In this document: piece by piece, positions 10,670-24,809 of the stretch
Numbering within the stretch: the first letter of the stretch is position 1
Layout: each line of letters opens with the position of its first letter
Source: a virus
Virus record (IMG/VR): IMGVR_UViG_3300023118_000008
Location: 1 to 28,187 of that record
DNA: 28,187 nucleotides
Reading direction: 5' to 3' (one strand)
Notes under the pieces: generated by a model
What the model was told of the DNA's origin: nothing
The model's database searches: none
The model's input: only the letters and a program-made list of their open reading frames with translations
Position numbers and translations under genes: made by a program

Positions 10670-13600
10670 CTAGCGTCTTGAACGATAAGTTGGTTTCAGA
10701 TTTTTTTGGTAGAAAGATTTGGTTCTCTGTATTTCTTTTCTAGCTTCTTCTTTTCTTCCTTTATATCTGTCAAACGATTTCGATGGAACCCAATGCAAAG
10801 CTTTGATTAAATATTCTAAATAAGCATACCCCCCCATAGCTCCTATTATTCTATCCACGTTGGCATTTTCTTGATAAGATATAATTTCATCCAAAAGGTA
10901 TATATCATCTATTCTTTGAACTCCTTTCAATTCTACAATTTTTATTTGCCCTGTTTCCTTGTCTTCTACTTCTATATCAAAAGTTTCATTACAGTATTCT
11001 ACAAAAAAGTCAAATATAAATCTTTTCACTGCCCTAGGAGTCCATCCAAATTTACGCTTTTCATTATTAGGTCTATTAAAACTTGAAGTAAAGTCTAAGC
11101 TGTTTGCTAAATATTTTTCTGTAAGTTGCCTAGTATCTAAAAAATCTTTAATTTTGAAATCTTCGTTTTCCCCAAAACACGTTGTTTCAAGTTGATAAGC
11201 CTCCATTAATAGCAACCACTTTTCCCAAACTGTTTTATGCTTTTCTGGGCGTATAGAAAGAGATGCTACTATCTTTTTAGAGAAAGGGTCTCCTAAAATT
11301 TCATTCTTCCAAACATAAAATGTGGCAACAGAGTCGGTGTCTGAGTCCTCTTGTTTGTAATCATCAAACCCAGCCGTATATGTACCTATTGGTACTCTTC
11401 CCTCAGGCGGATTTTCAAATATCATAAATGGGGCATCCATCACTCCTTTATAAGGGTATTCAATTAAGGGACGTTGTGAAAGCTCAACTTGTATTTTTCC
11501 GTTTGAATCTTTGTACATTTCTCTCCTTCTATCCCACAAACCCGATTCCCATAAATACTTTCTATGAGCTTTTGCTTCTGCTACAGGGAAAGGATTAACC
11601 TTGCCCGAAAGAAATATTTCAGAAGGATCTATTGGATGATAAGCAAGGAGTTTTACATAAGCTTTTTTATCACTAACCTTATTGTCTCTTTCTATATTTA
11701 TATTCTCAAGTGTTTTTTTCCAATCTGTAACACCTATCATTAGTCTTGAAAGATTGGGACATTCTTCGGCTTTTAATCCTAAGTAGTCACTCATAGACAT
11801 GACGTTCTTTTTACCAAATCTAATTGACATCTGACCTGGTAAAAATAGTCCAAAAGGCCTTTCAGTCCAAGTTTTATGTTCATTAGGGACTCCTCTGTTC
11901 AAATCGTCCCAATTCATCAAGATAACTTTATTTGCTTCAGGATTGCTTAACATTTTTATACCATCTGATGCTAATTCGTCATCGCCTCCTGTATTGAAAG
12001 TACAAAAGTTGTTTGCTAAATAGGTATGGGTATTTCCTGCTGTTAGATTATAAACTTCTTTCTTTCCTATGTACTCAACACTTTTTATGGCTCTCATTGA
12101 TAAGTTATTTAATGACTTACCTTCAAAATAACTCCCTTTCCCTTCTTTATTTAATATGAACTCAAATCCACTTGCACTTTTACGTGTCTTTGTCTTTTCA
12201 TCTAATTTTAATATTTTATCTAAACAGACCTGCTTGTGTTTGCACAATAAAGTTATATTTTCTCTAAATTTTAAAACATCGCTTCTTCTCCCAATATATA
12301 ATCTGTAGATATTTTTATTGGGAACATAACCTCCTTTTCTAAATTCTTTTACAATACTTGAATGTATTCCTAATTTATAAAGCTGATATTTAACCTCCTC
12401 TAACAGTTCTCTAAAATAACAAGTCAAAGTTACAGTTATACAATTTTTGTTTTTATCATATTTCACACTACCATCGGCATCATAATATCCAGCTAAAAGT
12501 TCACATACTGATTTTTTGTCATATTCGTGAATATTTTTAGGAAGTGTTTTAGAAGTTTTACTTTTCAATAACCCAGCCTCCCTAAAAGTAGGTAACATTC
12601 CTCTTATTCCAACATCTCGATAAATACCTCCATTTTTCATTTCAAATGTTCGGCCATCTTTTGTATCATAGTTGGTTTTTATGAATTCATATATTTCTTC
12701 GTCACCGCAGGATAATCTAAGTCCAGAATTACTTGCATTACCATCTCCAATCATTAATCCAAAAAGTCTTGCGTTGATTTCTTGTTTTTTACCCCAGATA
12801 TCTAATTTATCTAGCATGTAAAGTTTATCGCCCTTTTTTAAATCTAAGGCTTTTTTTGCTGTTATTTTTTTGCTCCGCTTCTCACTATTTAAAGGTGTTA
12901 AAAAAGAATGGTCAATACTGCATTCAATACTGTCCCCGCCTTCTGTTGTGATTTTTACACACTCTTTTTTTTCAGGAGGCTTCATCCAAGTTATAAGTTC
13001 TTTACTATATCCTTTTTCATTAAACCCTATAATCCCATCCTCTTGTTTTAAGTCTTCTATATTTATTAAATTACCTTGATTATTCCAAACTTTTGTTCCT
13101 ACACATACACAGGCTGTCAGTAGCGGTGTTGCTCTCATTACACCCTCTCCAAACAAGGCTGGTTCCAATCCTTGTAGTTGATTCATAAAAGGAAATTTGA
13201 AAGCCTCGTCTAATATAAACTCATCAATGGTAAATCCTGCCAAGGATTCACCTTTCTTTTTATTAGTTCCACCATCAAGATTCTTTACATACAAGGCGGC
13301 ATGTCTTTTACGTTTATTATCTTTAGTTCTGATACCAAATTCTTCTCCTTTACCTTCTTTAGTTTCTCCTAAAGAATCCAAGGTGAACGCTGGTTCACAA
13401 TTATCCATGTTAACTTTACAGTTGTCCATAATCTGACCTAAATCCGAAGAAGATCCTCCTGCTAATAAAATACCCATCCTGCCCAGAACTTTGGCTCTCT
13501 CAACACGAGACGCATTTAAAGTTGTCTTAGCGGCACGTCTTGTCGCAGCGATAAGTGCATATCCCTGTTCTCGACTAGCTTTAATAAAATATTCAGACAT

Positions 13601-14494
13601 AATCCACTCATTGTCCCTCAAAGGCGGTCTGTCTGTCACATCCTTGGATTTTGGATGACCGTTAACCATAACTGTTATGGGGTACTTAACTCTAAAATGA
13701 TTTATATGGTAATAAATCCAACCGTCAAAATATACTCCATCGATATCAACCCCGTCTTCAATTTTTTTAAGCTCGTCTACGTAATATTGTATTGTCTCTT
13801 TTTCCTGCTCCCAAAAATGCTTATCAGGATTCCATATAGGGGAGTTTTCATTTAATATGTGTAGATTTTTTGGCGCGGGAGAATCAAAATCTATTTTCAT
13901 TAATTTCATCTTCTCCCTAACAGCAGGAAAATCCCTAACAACCTCTTTATAGACTGCTAGGGACGCTTTCTTGTTATCAAAGAACTCAATATAGTCTGAA
14001 CCTTTATCTTCCTCTTCTACGAAGCCGTAGGAGCTTAAAATTTGGTCTACTTTTGAATACTCAGCAAATACTTCTGAATTGAACTTGGCTTCCTTACTTC
14101 TTAGGTCGTGGATTTTAATGTCAGTCTCGTCTATTTCTAAAGAGTACTTGTCACACCTTTTTAAGTGGATGTTTATTATGTTAGTGGCAAGCTTGAAGAA
14201 AGACTTAAATTTTGGATTTTTATAATCTCCTTTTGACTTGTCTATAAAAAACTTAAGTCGGTCTAGTATTTTTTTAACTAAGCCGACTTGCACTCTAAAT
14301 TCGTTATCTTTTTGGTAGAACTCATTCTCATAGTTTGATGTCTTTCCAAACATAACTATGTCTTTTTCTTCTATAAATAAAAGCTGTACATCCCTGCTCC
14401 AATCAAAATCTTCTAAATGCTGTTTCCATTTCTTGAAGCGGGGACTGTTTCTTTTTATGAACTCATCTATCTGTTCGTTGCTATTGTTTTCCAT
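10670..14494 (-). CDS. terL: Terminase large subunit precursor containing an intein
   Basis: This encodes a 1274-residue precursor. Removing intein residues 462-834 leaves a 901-residue terminase, the ATP-driven motor that cuts and packages phage DNA. The ATPase shows a Walker A of the terminase type at 317-325 (ATRRAAKTT), Walker B at 426-430 (FILDE) and motif III, TATGG, formed only after splicing joins residues 459-461 to 835. The C-terminal RNase H-like nuclease has acidic residues at D1044 (AGFDDY), E1109 or E1111 (GENED) and D1214 (NVDRIIGAM). An unusually long N-terminal region of about 290 residues precedes the ATPase. The ATG overlaps the upstream 139-residue gene by 14 bases. Without splicing, motif III is broken, so packaging should depend on intein removal. 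Confidence 0.92.
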   Translation of the reverse strand: MENNSNEQIDEFIKRNSPRFKKWKQHLEDFDWSRDVQLLFIEEKDIVMFGKTSNYENEFYQKDNEFRVQVGLVKKILDRLKFFIDKSKGDYKNPKFKSFFKLATNIINIHLKRCDKYSLEIDETDIKIHDLRSKEAKFNSEVFAEYSKVDQILSSYGFVEEEDKGSDYIEFFDNKKASLAVYKEVVRDFPAVREKMKLMKIDFDSPAPKNLHILNENSPIWNPDKHFWEQEKETIQYYVDELKKIEDGVDIDGVYFDGWIYYHINHFRVKYPITVMVNGHPKSKDVTDRPPLRDNEWIMSEYFIKASREQGYALIAATRRAAKTTLNASRVERAKVLGRMGILLAGGSSSDLGQIMDNCKVNMDNCEPAFTLDSLGETKEGKGEEFGIRTKDNKRKRHAALYVKNLDGGTNKKKGESLAGFTIDEFILDEAFKFPFMNQLQGLEPALFGEGVMRATPLLTACVCVGTKVWNNQGNLINIEDLKQEDGIIGFNEKGYSKELITWMKPPEKKECVKITTEGGDSIECSIDHSFLTPLNSEKRSKKITAKKALDLKKGDKLYMLDKLDIWGKKQEINARLFGLMIGDGNASNSGLRLSCGDEEIYEFIKTNYDTKDGRTFEMKNGGIYRDVGIRGMLPTFREAGLLKSKTSKTLPKNIHEYDKKSVCELLAGYYDADGSVKYDKNKNCITVTLTCYFRELLEEVKYQLYKLGIHSSIVKEFRKGGYVPNKNIYRLYIGRRSDVLKFRENITLLCKHKQVCLDKILKLDEKTKTRKSASGFEFILNKEGKGSYFEGKSLNNLSMRAIKSVEYIGKKEVYNLTAGNTHTYLANNFCTFNTGGDDELASDGIKMLSNPEANKVILMNWDDLNRGVPNEHKTWTERPFGLFLPGQMSIRFGKKNVMSMSDYLGLKAEECPNLSRLMIGVTDWKKTLENINIERDNKVSDKKAYVKLLAYHPIDPSEIFLSGKVNPFPVAEAKAHRKYLWESGLWDRRREMYKDSNGKIQVELSQRPLIEYPYKGVMDAPFMIFENPPEGRVPIGTYTAGFDDYKQEDSDTDSVATFYVWKNEILGDPFSKKIVASLSIRPEKHKTVWEKWLLLMEAYQLETTCFGENEDFKIKDFLDTRQLTEKYLANSLDFTSSFNRPNNEKRKFGWTPRAVKRFIFDFFVEYCNETFDIEVEDKETGQIKIVELKGVQRIDDIYLLDEIISYQENANVDRIIGAMGGYAYLEYLIKALHWVPSKSFDRYKGRKEEARKEIQRTKSFYQKNLKPTYRSRR
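11993..13111 (-). mobile_element. Intein with LAGLIDADG homing endonuclease in terL
   Basis: This is a 373-residue in-frame insertion. It begins with Cys462 (CVCVGTKVW, block A) and has block B at 523-531 (IECSIDHSF, with the conserved His at 529). It ends with block F, VYNLTAGNTHTYLANNF (814-830), then CTFN, with Asn834 last and Thr835 as the +1 extein residue. Two LAGLIDADG motifs, LFGLMIGDG (577-585) and LLAGYYDADG (666-675), mark an endonuclease domain that would cut intein-less terL copies. The residue before the terminal Asn is Phe and not the usual His; some active inteins tolerate this, but it can slow cleavage. The insertion point is ATPase motif III, a highly conserved site as expected for homing. 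Confidence 0.9.
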
Positions 14495-17327: not shown

Positions 17328-17359
17328 TTTGGTTATTTGGATTTTAGTTTGTATCTTTG
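17328..17359 (+). promoter_or_regulatory. Rightward early promoter 1
   Basis: TTTG (17328-17331), 20-base spacer, TATCTTTG (17352-17359): a close match to the Bacteroidota consensus. It ends 22 bases before the ATG at 17382. It rules out a TTG start at 17337, which would place the promoter inside the coding region. It is divergent from the leftward promoter, with about 50 bases between their -33 boxes. Confidence 0.75.
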
Positions 17360-17598: not shown

Positions 17599-17630
17599 TT
17601 TGGTTTTAAGTATTTTAATTCCTATCTTTG
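17599..17630 (+). promoter_or_regulatory. Rightward early promoter 2
   Basis: TTTG (17599-17602), 20-base spacer, TATCTTTG (17623-17630). Both boxes and the spacing are identical to rightward promoter 1. It starts five bases after the stop of the 70-residue gene and faces a 160-base non-coding leader before the next ATG. Confidence 0.75.
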
Positions 17631-17636
17631 ATTATT

Positions 17637-17790
17637 ATTACGCGTGTGAAGGGGAAGTCACACAAAACATAGAATTTTAAAGGTTATAATTGTTGTAGCA
17701 CTCTTTTATAAACCACATCATAACAGTATTTAAAAATTACCCTGTTAGATAAAAACCAGTGCTACTTTAGGTTTTTATTTTTCGGGGCTT
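17637..17790 (+). ncRNA. Candidate structured RNA or leader with complementary loops
   Basis: This is the 170-base stretch between promoter 2 and the ATG at 17801, with no coding frame of note. Inverted repeats are GTGTGA/TCACAC (17644-17649 with 17658-17663); GGTTATAA with TTATAAACC (17682-17689 with 17706-17714, one bulge); TAACAG/CTGTTA (17721-17726 with 17742-17747); and ATAAAAACC/GGTTTTTAT (17749-17757 with 17770-17778). GTAGCAC (17695-17701) in the second loop is the exact complement of GTGCTAC (17759-17765) in the last loop, so the two could kiss or form alternative pairings. The last stem is followed by TTTTTCGGGGCTTTTTT, so it may act as a terminator or attenuator. No known family is recognised. 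Confidence 0.45.
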
Positions 17791-17800
17791 TTTTATTTTA

Positions 17801-18706
17801 ATGCAAAAAGTTTTCAGATTGCCATCACAATTATATTTTGATCTGTTTTCTACTCCTGAGTTATCAGGAGACAAACTTATTGCTGTTTACTCAATCTTGA
17901 AAACCTCAAGAAATGGTGAAGTAAAATATTATGCTTACAAAGCTAAAAATAATAAATTTGTTAGTGGATATTCTCTTTTGAGAGCAAAAACTAACATATC
18001 GTTGAAGACATTAAAAAAATATGTTCCTGCATTAATAGAAAAAGGTTTATGTCATTTTGACGAAAACGGAGATTTTGTATTATTAGGAAATAAGAAAGTT
18101 AAAGAATTATATACAAGAAAGCTTGTACCTGTTGTTATAGGTGAAAGTTTTCTTGATACTGCCCTAAAAGTAATGTCTGTAAGAATCCACTCGAAAGAGG
18201 GATATCAAAAGAAAGAAATTGCAAAAAAACTAACTCGAAGTGAACAACTAAAGCAAGTGGTTGATAAATCTAATACAAACGCGGGAAAAAGAGCCCTAAA
18301 GCGTTCTGTAAAGGATGAGTCAGTTATTATCGAGAAAACTGTTTTATCGTTGCAAGGATTTTCTAAATTAAAAGACGGAACTTTAGACAATAAATCTAAA
18401 GGGTATTATTGGAAGAAAAAATTAAAAGCAAAAGGGTTGGTTAAGACTTCAAGAAGATTTGAAGAAATTGAAAAAATGTCTTTCTCAGAATACCAGTATT
18501 TAAAATCTGTCTTTGGTTTGCAAAGAGCGGAGACTTACAATAATGGATTTTTGTGTAGAGAAACTATTTCTTCTTTTTCGGCGGTGGATTTAACCAAAAA
18601 GGAAATTAAATTAGAAATTAAAGTTTCTCCTAGAAAACCATCAAAGAAGCCTATCAGATTAGACTTTGATATGATTAAGTTTTGGGAAAGTGGGGCAGGA
18701 AATTAA
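17801..18706 (+). CDS. Winged-helix early protein (replication initiator or regulator)
   Basis: This encodes 301 residues. Residues 55-98 form a likely winged helix (SLLRAKTNISLKTLKKYVPA, then LIEKGLCHFDENGDFVLLG), in which helix, recognition helix and a glycine-led wing are all visible. A second helical and wing-like unit occurs around 190-235 (FSKLKDGTLDNKSKGYYWKK, then LKAKGLVKTSRRF). Two winged helices separated by a basic linker are the layout of plasmid and phage replication initiators, but also of some transcription regulators. It is the first gene after promoter 2 and the structured leader, at the origin-proximal edge of the replication cluster, which favours initiator or early regulator. 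No replication origin iterons are visible nearby. Confidence 0.6.
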   Translation: MQKVFRLPSQLYFDLFSTPELSGDKLIAVYSILKTSRNGEVKYYAYKAKNNKFVSGYSLLRAKTNISLKTLKKYVPALIEKGLCHFDENGDFVLLGNKKVKELYTRKLVPVVIGESFLDTALKVMSVRIHSKEGYQKKEIAKKLTRSEQLKQVVDKSNTNAGKRALKRSVKDESVIIEKTVLSLQGFSKLKDGTLDNKSKGYYWKKKLKAKGLVKTSRRFEEIEKMSFSEYQYLKSVFGLQRAETYNNGFLCRETISSFSAVDLTKKEIKLEIKVSPRKPSKKPIRLDFDMIKFWESGAGN

Positions 18707-19018: not shown

Positions 19019-20230
19019 ATGGGAAAATTAAAATGGACATATGAAGCTTGCAAAGAAGAGGCTTTAAAGTATACTACTAGAAATCAATATTCTAAAAATT
19101 CAGCTAGTTCATATAACTCAGCTAGAGAGCATAAATGGTTAAACGATATCTGTTCTCATATGAATTACGAACAGCTTCCCAAAAACTATTGGACTAAAGA
19201 GATATGTCAATTAGAGTCTCTAAAATATTCATCAAAAGTTGATTTCAAATTAAATTCACCAACTGCATATTCTACAGCTAGGAAGAGAAAATGGTTTAAC
19301 GAGATATGTTCACATATGGAAGTTACAAGAAAACCTAATGGATATTGGACAAAAGATAGGTGTAAAGAGGAGGCATTAAAATATACAAACTGCACAGACT
19401 TCCAAAAAAGTTGCTCAAGCGCATATAATACTTCTTTAAAAAATCAATGGTATTGTGAAATAACTAGTCATTTCGAACTAAAAGGTAATTGGTATAAAAG
19501 ATTCATTTATGCGTACGAATTTATAGATGGTAGTGTTTATGTGGGATTAACTTATAATATAGAAGAAAGGAGAATATCCCATAATATAAGCGGAAGTGTG
19601 TTTGAATACATAACTAAAACTGGTTACACATTTAATTTTGTGCAGATAACACCAGAACCTGTTGATGTTGAAGATGCTAAAAAACTAGAAGCTTATTATT
19701 TAGATAAATACATTAAAGAGGGTTGGAAACCTCTGAATAAAAATAAAGCAGGAGGAGTTGGAGGAAACAGTCTAAAATGGACAATTGAGAATTTAAGAAC
19801 AGAAGCACTTAAGTATAACTACAGAGGAGAATTTACAACTAAAAGTCCTTCCGCTTATAACGCGGCTTTAAAAAGAGGGTTATTAGATAGTATTTGTTCC
19901 CATATGACTAGAAAGCATAAAGAAAAAGCAGTATATTCTTTAGAGAAATGTATAGAAATATCTTGTAGATATACTAATATGAGAGACTTTGTAAAAGCAG
20001 AACCCGCCGCATACCACGCTGTCTTAAAAAATAAATGGCAGGAATTTCTATGTGAAACCTTAATTAGAAAAAGGAATGTTAAGAACTATTGGGATTATGA
20101 TAAATGCATAGAAATTTCTAAAGATTTTAAATCTTTTACAGAATTAAGAAATAAACATTATGGTGCGTATAAGTTAATTCTAAAAATGGGTTGGCAAGAG
20201 CGGATAAAAAATAAATTTAAAAATGATTAG
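19019..20230 (+). CDS. GIY-YIG endonuclease with six flanking DNA-binding-type repeats
   Basis: This encodes 403 residues. The centre (160-250) is a GIY-YIG nuclease: FIYAYEF (162-168), YVGLT (174-178), Arg184, His188, Glu224 in LEAYYLDKY, and PLN at 238-240, all expected catalytic positions. On each side lie three copies of a 43-residue repeat (about 6-48, 58-100, 110-152, then 254-296, 306-348, 358-400) with the pattern W-T-x-x-x-C-x-x-E-A-x-K-Y, then an aromatic, Ser/Ala-Tyr, Ala, Lys/Arg-x-x-W-x-x-x-I-C-S-H-M. Such repeats accompany phage homing endonucleases and probably bind DNA. It overlaps the helicase gene by eight bases. It could be a free-standing homing endonuclease spreading within the early region. 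Confidence 0.8.
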   Translation: MGKLKWTYEACKEEALKYTTRNQYSKNSASSYNSAREHKWLNDICSHMNYEQLPKNYWTKEICQLESLKYSSKVDFKLNSPTAYSTARKRKWFNEICSHMEVTRKPNGYWTKDRCKEEALKYTNCTDFQKSCSSAYNTSLKNQWYCEITSHFELKGNWYKRFIYAYEFIDGSVYVGLTYNIEERRISHNISGSVFEYITKTGYTFNFVQITPEPVDVEDAKKLEAYYLDKYIKEGWKPLNKNKAGGVGGNSLKWTIENLRTEALKYNYRGEFTTKSPSAYNAALKRGLLDSICSHMTRKHKEKAVYSLEKCIEISCRYTNMRDFVKAEPAAYHAVLKNKWQEFLCETLIRKRNVKNYWDYDKCIEISKDFKSFTELRNKHYGAYKLILKMGWQERIKNKFKND

Positions 20231-23807: not shown

Positions 23808-24809
23808 ATGGCAAAAAAAGCAGTTAAAGAAGGTGATGAAGTTGCAATGAGTGCAATTGAAAAAATGTATGCAAAATATAAAAAATCAGATAATATCTTC
23901 CAACCACCTAAATCACTAGAGGATATTGACACTTCCGTTGAAAGATTAAAAAATCCATTTCTCTCTTTTGACAGATATTTAGGAGGAGCTCCTGCGTATG
24001 GAAAAATGACGACGTACTCAGCATTTGCTTCATGTGGAAAAACAAGTTTGGCATTAGCTTTGGCAGGAGCAAACCCCGATAAAATAATTGGGTTCAGCGA
24101 CAATGAATTCAATTGGAGTGACAGTTCGTACATATGGATAGATAAATATTTTGGAATTGAAAAAGAAAGAATCCACATCCTACAGCCTACTTATTTAGAA
24201 GAAGGGGCGGAAATGGTTGAAGATTTATGTGAGGTTGCAGATATTGTTATTTTTGATGGATTTGACTCATTAGCACCAAAAGCAGAATATCAAGCAACAA
24301 TGGAAGAACAGCAAATGGGGCTTCAAGCAAGAGCCTATAAGAAGTTTTTCAGAAGATGTATGGGTAAGATTTACAAATCTAAAGCGGCATTAATCGTAAC
24401 TAACCATTTATATGAAAATATTGGAAACCCTTATGAGCCGTTTAAAGAGCCAGGAGGAAGATCTATTCACGATTTTGCTAGTCAAAAGTTATATCTGACA
24501 AGGAGTAATGTAAAAGATAAGGATAAAAATATGACAGGACAAGATGTTAACGTAACAGTTAACAAAGATAAACTATCGGGTAACAGAGGTGCTAAATTTA
24601 GTCTTCCTTATGACAATAAGACAGGTTTTGATATTGAGTTGGATATCTTAAATAACGCGGTTGAATTAGGTATTGTGAAACAAAATGGAACTTTTTTCAG
24701 TTATGACGGTACAAATATCGGACAAGGGCAATTAAAGGCAAGAAATACTTTGGCAGAAAATCCAGAGTTAACATCAGAAATCATTTCACTTTGTAAAGAA
24801 AAATTCTAA
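23808..24809 (+). CDS. RecA/UvsX-like recombinase
   Basis: This encodes 333 residues of the RecA/UvsX family, the ATPase that pairs homologous DNA strands. Walker A is SAFASCGKTS (71-80), and Walker B is VIFD ending at D150, followed by GFDSLAPKAE, which parallels the RecA DSVAALTPKAE segment. QQMGLQARAYKKF (168-180) matches the following RecA helix, and TNHLYENIGNPYEPFKEPGG (198-217) lies at the L2 DNA-binding loop. It is shorter than host RecA and lacks its C-terminal domain, as phage versions do. The stop overlaps the next ATG. With helicase, NinG-like protein and exonuclease it forms a recombination-dependent replication or repair set. Confidence 0.88.
   Translation: MAKKAVKEGDEVAMSAIEKMYAKYKKSDNIFQPPKSLEDIDTSVERLKNPFLSFDRYLGGAPAYGKMTTYSAFASCGKTSLALALAGANPDKIIGFSDNEFNWSDSSYIWIDKYFGIEKERIHILQPTYLEEGAEMVEDLCEVADIVIFDGFDSLAPKAEYQATMEEQQMGLQARAYKKFFRRCMGKIYKSKAALIVTNHLYENIGNPYEPFKEPGGRSIHDFASQKLYLTRSNVKDKDKNMTGQDVNVTVNKDKLSGNRGAKFSLPYDNKTGFDIELDILNNAVELGIVKQNGTFFSYDGTNIGQGQLKARNTLAENPELTSEIISLCKEKF

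Follow-up and report, generated by a model that had tools for sequence, protein, structure and literature searches.

An early leader RNA of putative crAss-like phages in which the terminator loop pairs with an upstream word

Layout of the early leader

What is transcribed from the short stretch that separates an early promoter from the first early gene of this phage, and could it be an RNA with a role of its own? A sequence-only reading had proposed here two hairpins joined by complementary 7-base loops, in front of a winged-helix gene. The window, i.e. the whole stretch of DNA analysed (28,187 nucleotides), covers positions 1-28187 of a virus record 144 kb long. Packaging and structural genes are encoded on the minus strand, early genes on the plus strand; the two groups diverge from a region at about 17.2–17.8 kb. 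The major capsid protein shows 30–34% identity to those of the Cellulophaga phages phi4:1 and phi17:2 and of the human-gut phage csAssE-Sib, the terminase of a near relative shows 29–34% to the terminases of the same three phages, and the portal and terminase families of the window agree with these matches. From the capsid, terminase and portal matches, we read the window phage as a probable crAss-like phage of Bacteroidota. The window terminase (10670-14494, minus strand) contains an intein, with Intein_splicing, LAGLIDADG_3 and intein_Nterm matches at about residues 461–832; this intein is absent from a near relative's terminase (903 aa). Two near relatives with 95% identical capsid protein are present in IMG/VR, namely G001 (also L004) and G002 (L005), and more distant records were reached via the terminase. 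Hereafter W denotes the window phage; L015, L022 and L046 also carry the labels G003, G008 and G018, respectively.

The features of the locus are listed in Table 1. The separate promoter proposed earlier stands: TTTG (17599-17602), a 20 nt spacer and TATCTTTG (17623-17630) fully match the Bacteroidota consensus TTTG/TAHHTTTG, for which the start position is also described (PMC6847099), and transcription is predicted to start near 17635. About 165 nt would thus be transcribed ahead of the ATG at 17801, in agreement with the 160 bases or so first suggested. The leader promoter and that of the small gene upstream occupy matching places in G001, G002, L015, L016 and L019; a promoter search in L022 found none. 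On the minus strand over the leader, a search covering the Bacteroidota type found no promoter, and an antisense RNA over the leader was rejected for this reason.

Table 1. Positions in the window of the leader and its neighbouring features.
Feature	Positions	Strand	Basis or remark
Small-gene promoter	17328-17359	+	same kind as leader promoter, about 270 bases upstream of it; conserved in the same relatives
Small gene, 70 aa	17382-17594	+	just upstream of leader promoter; 89–91% amino acid identity in G001 and G002
Leader promoter, Bacteroidota type	17599-17630	+	TTTG-N20-TATCTTTG; same place in G001, G002, L015, L016, L019
Leader RNA, about 160–165 nt (predicted)	17635-17799	+	predicted start to U-tract end; length from promoter and terminator positions
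5' hairpin GTGTGA/TCACAC	17644-17663	+	fold; private to window phage
Possible hairpin P1, upstream word in loop	17682-17714	+	fold; weakly supported
Upstream pairing word K' = GTAGCACT	17695-17702	+	exact complement of K; 1/2000 shuffles; covaries
Terminator hairpin P2	17740-17787	+	fold; covariation; L015 and L022 matched by covariance model at the syntenic place
Loop pairing word K = AGTGCTAC	17758-17765	+	flush with P2 5' arm
Linker TTTA between K and P2 3' arm	17766-17769	+	identical in all six members
U-tract of terminator	17789-17799	+	sequence
First early gene, 301 aa	17801-18706	+	starts 13 nt past terminator stem; no family match

The anatomy of an intrinsic terminator spans 17740-17799, immediately ahead of the first early gene. 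The inner stem of P2 (17748-17757/17770-17779) has 10 bp and a 12-nt loop; the outer stem CCCTG/CGGGG (17740-17744/17783-17787) is followed by T6, and CTTTTTTATTTT lies directly 3' of it. A hairpin closed by G+C and a U-tract at the transcript end are found in six members (see below), and the terminator is presumed to work. A simple terminator-consensus scan of the window, with a loop limit of 8 nt, gave no match. The folding energy of the stretch alone is modest (z -1.5) and taken by itself would have led us to dismiss the finding; the evidence for the RNA is comparative.

The pairing between K and K' extends over 8 bp, one more than first claimed. The 7-bp form is a single match in the window and arose in 0 of 100 shuffles. 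The inverted repeats proposed alongside it fared unequally. The last hairpin is strong, and GTGTGA/TCACAC is present in the window and absent from G001 and G002. The hairpin around 17695 (P1) is weak, being no better than chance when considered alone in the window (p=0.21); an upstream hairpin of this type reaches a combined p of about 0.01 over five members and is individually significant only in G008 and G018. Of the two joined hairpins, what holds is a terminator-hairpin loop that pairs with an upstream segment. Because the upstream hairpin is only weakly supported, a kissing loop and a pseudoknot cannot be told apart, and the contact with the terminator would be one or the other. Across members, the conserved feature is the loop-to-upstream pairing, with the downstream partner always inside the P2 loop.

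Comparative evidence for the pairing

Both near relatives have the same promoter and leader plan as the window, with other words: TGGGAGGTT/AACCTCCCA in G001 and GTGGAAAGG/CCTTTCCAC in G002. In these two phages and in W, the word begins right behind the terminator 5' arm, and exactly four bases, TTTA, separate it from the 3' arm. The covariance model R1, built on the terminator part only and hence blind to the K:K' pairing, matched L015 with 36.7 bits and L022 with 27.4 bits. Both matches are syntenic and lie upstream of terminases with 36–37% identity. TTTA is present in both, together with a pairing of 9 bp in L015 (GTGGAAATT/AATTTCCAC) and of 8 bp in L022 (GTTGGGAC/GTCCCAAC). The five phages thus share a fixed order: 5' stem arm, pairing word, TTTA, 3' arm, GGGG and U-tract. 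A probable sixth member, L046, was obtained by a degenerate pattern scan of IMG/VR with a structure filter, and is graded so because it was chosen partly by the feature being tested. It carries TGGTGG/CCACCA in a 38 kb phage record of another, unrelated kind, where the leader precedes an HNH-like gene and a gene resembling replication-initiation proteins. The search patterns that gave L046 included TTTA, whereas for L015 and L022 it was not fixed.

Per 2000 shuffles of each leader, the match was reached once for W (all 8 positions), never for G001, three times each for G002, G003 and G008, and seven times for G018. Of 1287 control hairpins with T-rich tails at unrelated loci, 3 have an upstream segment complementary over 8 nt. 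The six-row alignment A8 was fitted manually to the structure, using N padding, and its members are few, some being related to each other. On it, all 9 pairs of the K:K' helix show double compensatory changes. All 49 cells of this helix are Watson-Crick, with no G-U, and sliding the partner by 1–3 columns loses the pairing. The terminator helices also covary. The per-member shuffles, the matches of the pairing-blind model and the hairpin control are independent of the A8 layout. Compensatory changes in the leaders of relatives, by which the proposal was to be judged, are thus abundant in the long-range helix. As both partners have changed together in relatives, the comparison indicates that the pairing is real.

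Further cases were sought widely. The IMG/VR pattern scan (106 stretches) added L046 only, the CNACTTTA pattern (17 stretches) returned known members only, and a U-tract pattern (at least 120 stretches) gave nothing new among the matches listed. No member was present among the matches listed from a pattern scan of GTDB genomes (at least 119 stretches). In 400 Flavobacteriaceae genomes, with 13 candidates scored per genome, the covariance-model search gave four matches. All four are ordinary terminators that lack the pairing, and a prophage version was thus not seen at this depth. Matches of the model in csAssE-Sib and G013 were likewise read as plain terminators. The leader of L020/L021 has no matching pairing, and no loop-to-upstream pairing of this kind was seen in the early leader of phi4:1; the clade as a whole therefore does not need it. 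With Rfam 15, no family matched in the window, L015, L016, L019, L020 or L022, and phi4:1 gave tRNAs only; with an E-value threshold, the matches were weak chance ones.

The gene behind the leader is not the same from phage to phage. No relative was found via the downstream gene of the window in IMG/VR, among phages or in either near-relative record, where the gene at the same place is also no homologue of the 301-aa protein. The winged-helix assignment of this protein is not borne out: single-sequence AlphaFold gave a pLDDT of 32, and only a weak Sso10a motif was seen. At this place, G001 and G002 encode BT4734-like/PriCT primase-type proteins that are 26% identical to each other. Between these two phages the upstream small gene has 96% DNA identity and the leaders about 67%. 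In L015, several hundred bases without a good ORF lie behind the leader. Since the downstream gene changes and L015 has this stretch, the RNA is tied to the promoter: INDEPENDENCE from the downstream gene, it goes with the promoter and not with one gene.

Several observations on the surrounding genes are worth reporting. Compared with L004 and L005, the replication module of the window is mosaic from 17801 to about 21600, homology breaking at the leader promoter. The UvsX/RecA-like gene found at the same place looks markedly different among the three near relatives (window 23808-24809, plus strand; L004 8910-9920, plus strand; L005 2690-3685, minus strand), as does the remainder of the replication module. 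A GIY-YIG-type protein is encoded at 19019-20230 of the window (plus strand), and several repeats of the type 'ALKYTxRxxFxKxSxSAYNxALKxxW' lie around its catalytic domain. ORF-poor stretches of several hundred bases lie between leader and first early gene, all on the minus strand, in L015 (4680-5110), L016 (6140-6870), L019 (6360-7080) and L020 (6250-6800). They gave no tRNA or Rfam match and could possibly be large non-coding RNAs heading the early operon. Upstream of the leader promoter, a small acidic-looking gene (70–94 aa) with its own promoter is found in the window, L015, L016, L019, L020 and phi4:1 (gp074). The distant ones, including that of phi4:1, look like divergent positional homologues. 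The small protein of the window is a candidate partner of the leader RNA.

What the leader may do

The placement of the element between the early promoter and the replication genes, as the sequence-only reading had it, is supported, with hardly any space for another promoter. With the first gene this close behind the terminator and scarcely any space for a promoter in between, polymerase should have to read through for the gene to be expressed, which would place the element in the position of an attenuator. On balance, and with modest confidence, we favour a cis-acting RNA of the early operon in a clade of crAss-like Bacteroidota phages, working by regulated termination (attenuation). It would probably represent a new control switch for early phage genes. 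RNA polymerase would start near 17635 and make K' first. The 5' arm of the terminator and its loop would follow, and K' would capture K before the 3' arm is complete; synthesis of the 3' arm comes last, after K and the 5' arm, which gives K' the chance to take hold of the loop while the RNA is still being transcribed. K lies outside the stem, so that the K:K' helix and the terminator are compatible. In the resulting pseudoknot (or kissing complex), the contact would stack on the terminator stem, bridged by the TTTA linker. How much of the polymerase stops in the U-tract and how much reads through to the replication genes would then depend on this contact, whose state could be set by a phage protein or another RNA. 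Most likely, K:K' would tune the closing or the stability of the terminator and a phage factor would act through the contact; that the terminator works, the direction of the effect on termination and any controlling factor are what we infer.

The coupled turnover of the two words suggests a rival that we consider rather unlikely and that is the one we take most seriously. This would be self-specific feedback or immunity, in which terminated leaders build up and raise termination on newly made leaders of the same type by pairing in trans, K' (or K) of the one with K (or K') of the other. The replication genes of the phage itself, or of a like superinfecting phage, would be limited, other types being orthogonal. 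A second architecture bears on this. In L016 and L019, with terminases about 35% identical to the query, the early leaders measure exactly 112 nt from promoter to terminator and align without gaps. Outside the paired segments 77 of 84 positions are identical (92%), against 9 of 28 (32%) inside them, with a Fisher p of 1.6e-9 that is indicative, the segments having been delimited after the alignment was seen. Pairing of each upstream segment with the long terminator loop of the same phage reaches -17.9 and -16.9 kcal/mol; with the loop of the other phage it is weaker (-8.7 and -9.9 kcal/mol). Such turnover of paired segments within a conserved scaffold speaks for action in trans. So do the joint change of leader and replication module between G001 and G002 and the self-pairing of the six main members, which is stronger than cross-pairing, in most cases much stronger, and least clear for G002 versus G003. 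These two phages have most of the word in common although they are distant, which counts against a trans role, as do the strong competition from cis pairing within the same molecule and the lack of a Bacteroidota-type antisense promoter. A specificity determinant would be expected to show just this pattern, two words changing jointly in a scaffold that changes little. That the leader is a self-recognition RNA of crAss-like phages, with two words that change together and each type reading only its own early leader, is a tentative idea that we think probably goes too far. If true, feedback on the replication operon, or exclusion acting there, would be specific to the phage type; the RNA would be the phage equivalent of plasmid incompatibility RNAs and work via an intrinsic-terminator loop.

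The independence of the RNA from the following gene, and the lack of good ORFs behind the L015 leader, would also suit a free-standing small RNA, as had been suggested. The terminated product of about 160 nt would then be the active species, its 3' pseudoknot protecting it or shaping it for a host target, and read-through would be incidental. We find this unlikely: no single-stranded seed is conserved besides the pairing and the scaffold, and the first gene lies right behind the terminator in W, G001 and G002.

In the same three phages the stem ends 13–19 nt before the ATG, and in Flavobacterium structure near the start codon tunes initiation (PMC6847099). The pseudoknot could on these grounds be a translational gate that blocks or admits ribosomes, the U-tract being incidental. 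Such a gate seems improbable given that L015 and L022 have no close start codon of a clear gene and that the U-tract and GGGG are conserved.

An earlier suggestion was that the pairing replaces the last hairpin, giving a mutually exclusive terminator/antiterminator switch. In favour of this, K' is transcribed first and could intervene ahead of terminator closure, but K lies wholly in the loop in W, G001, G002, G003 and G018 and overlaps an arm by at most 1 nt in G008. With K outside the stem both structures can form together, and we have rejected this very improbable version. A DNA-level element (origin or cruciform), which the neighbourhood of replication genes might evoke, or mere chance has next to no likelihood, since both the U-tract and a conserved U-G pair are consistent with just one of the strands, the promoter-to-terminator order is fixed, and the shuffles, double changes and control hairpins make chance very unlikely.

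Relation to known leader RNAs

Little is known of early-gene control in crAss-like and other Bacteroidota phages, and the covariation support makes this leader testable with simple reporters. Within the literature searched, of which coverage was partial, no such RNA was found for crAss-like or Cellulophaga phages. As far as this literature and the sequence comparison reach, the leader would be an undescribed conserved RNA at the head of a replication operon, of the leader-terminator kind.

In phage P4, immunity is exerted by CI-RNA, a processed RNA that acts in trans in the lysogen. The likeness lies in a phage replication operon whose early leader contains mutually complementary segments within one transcript, in premature termination and in type-specific pairing. 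In contrast to P4, the complementarity shown here is in cis alone, and the phage group looks virulent; we do not class the leader with P4 immunity. Control of plasmid rep leaders by loop-loop RNA, as for RNAI of IncB/K/I plasmids and in ColIb-P9, also combines a replication-gene leader with type-specific loop pairing and, in some members, a pseudoknot (PMC10724649). The plasmid kind uses an antisense RNA from the opposite strand, whereas here that strand has no Bacteroidota promoter, and because this test fails we do not file the leader under it. The early leader of phi4:1 (Lightbulbvirus) is alike in having a promoter after the small-gene homologue, a short leader and an intrinsic terminator before the early operon, where tRNA genes follow; it differs in the pairing discussed above.

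Attenuators in leaders with an intrinsic terminator are a general kind in bacterial and phage operons. The present leader resembles them in its succession of promoter, leader, intrinsic terminator and operon. It differs in that no leader peptide, competing antiterminator stem or Rfam family was found, and in that the terminator loop is paired with an upstream word while the stem is left unused. Gating termination by an upstream word that holds the terminator loop would be unusual.
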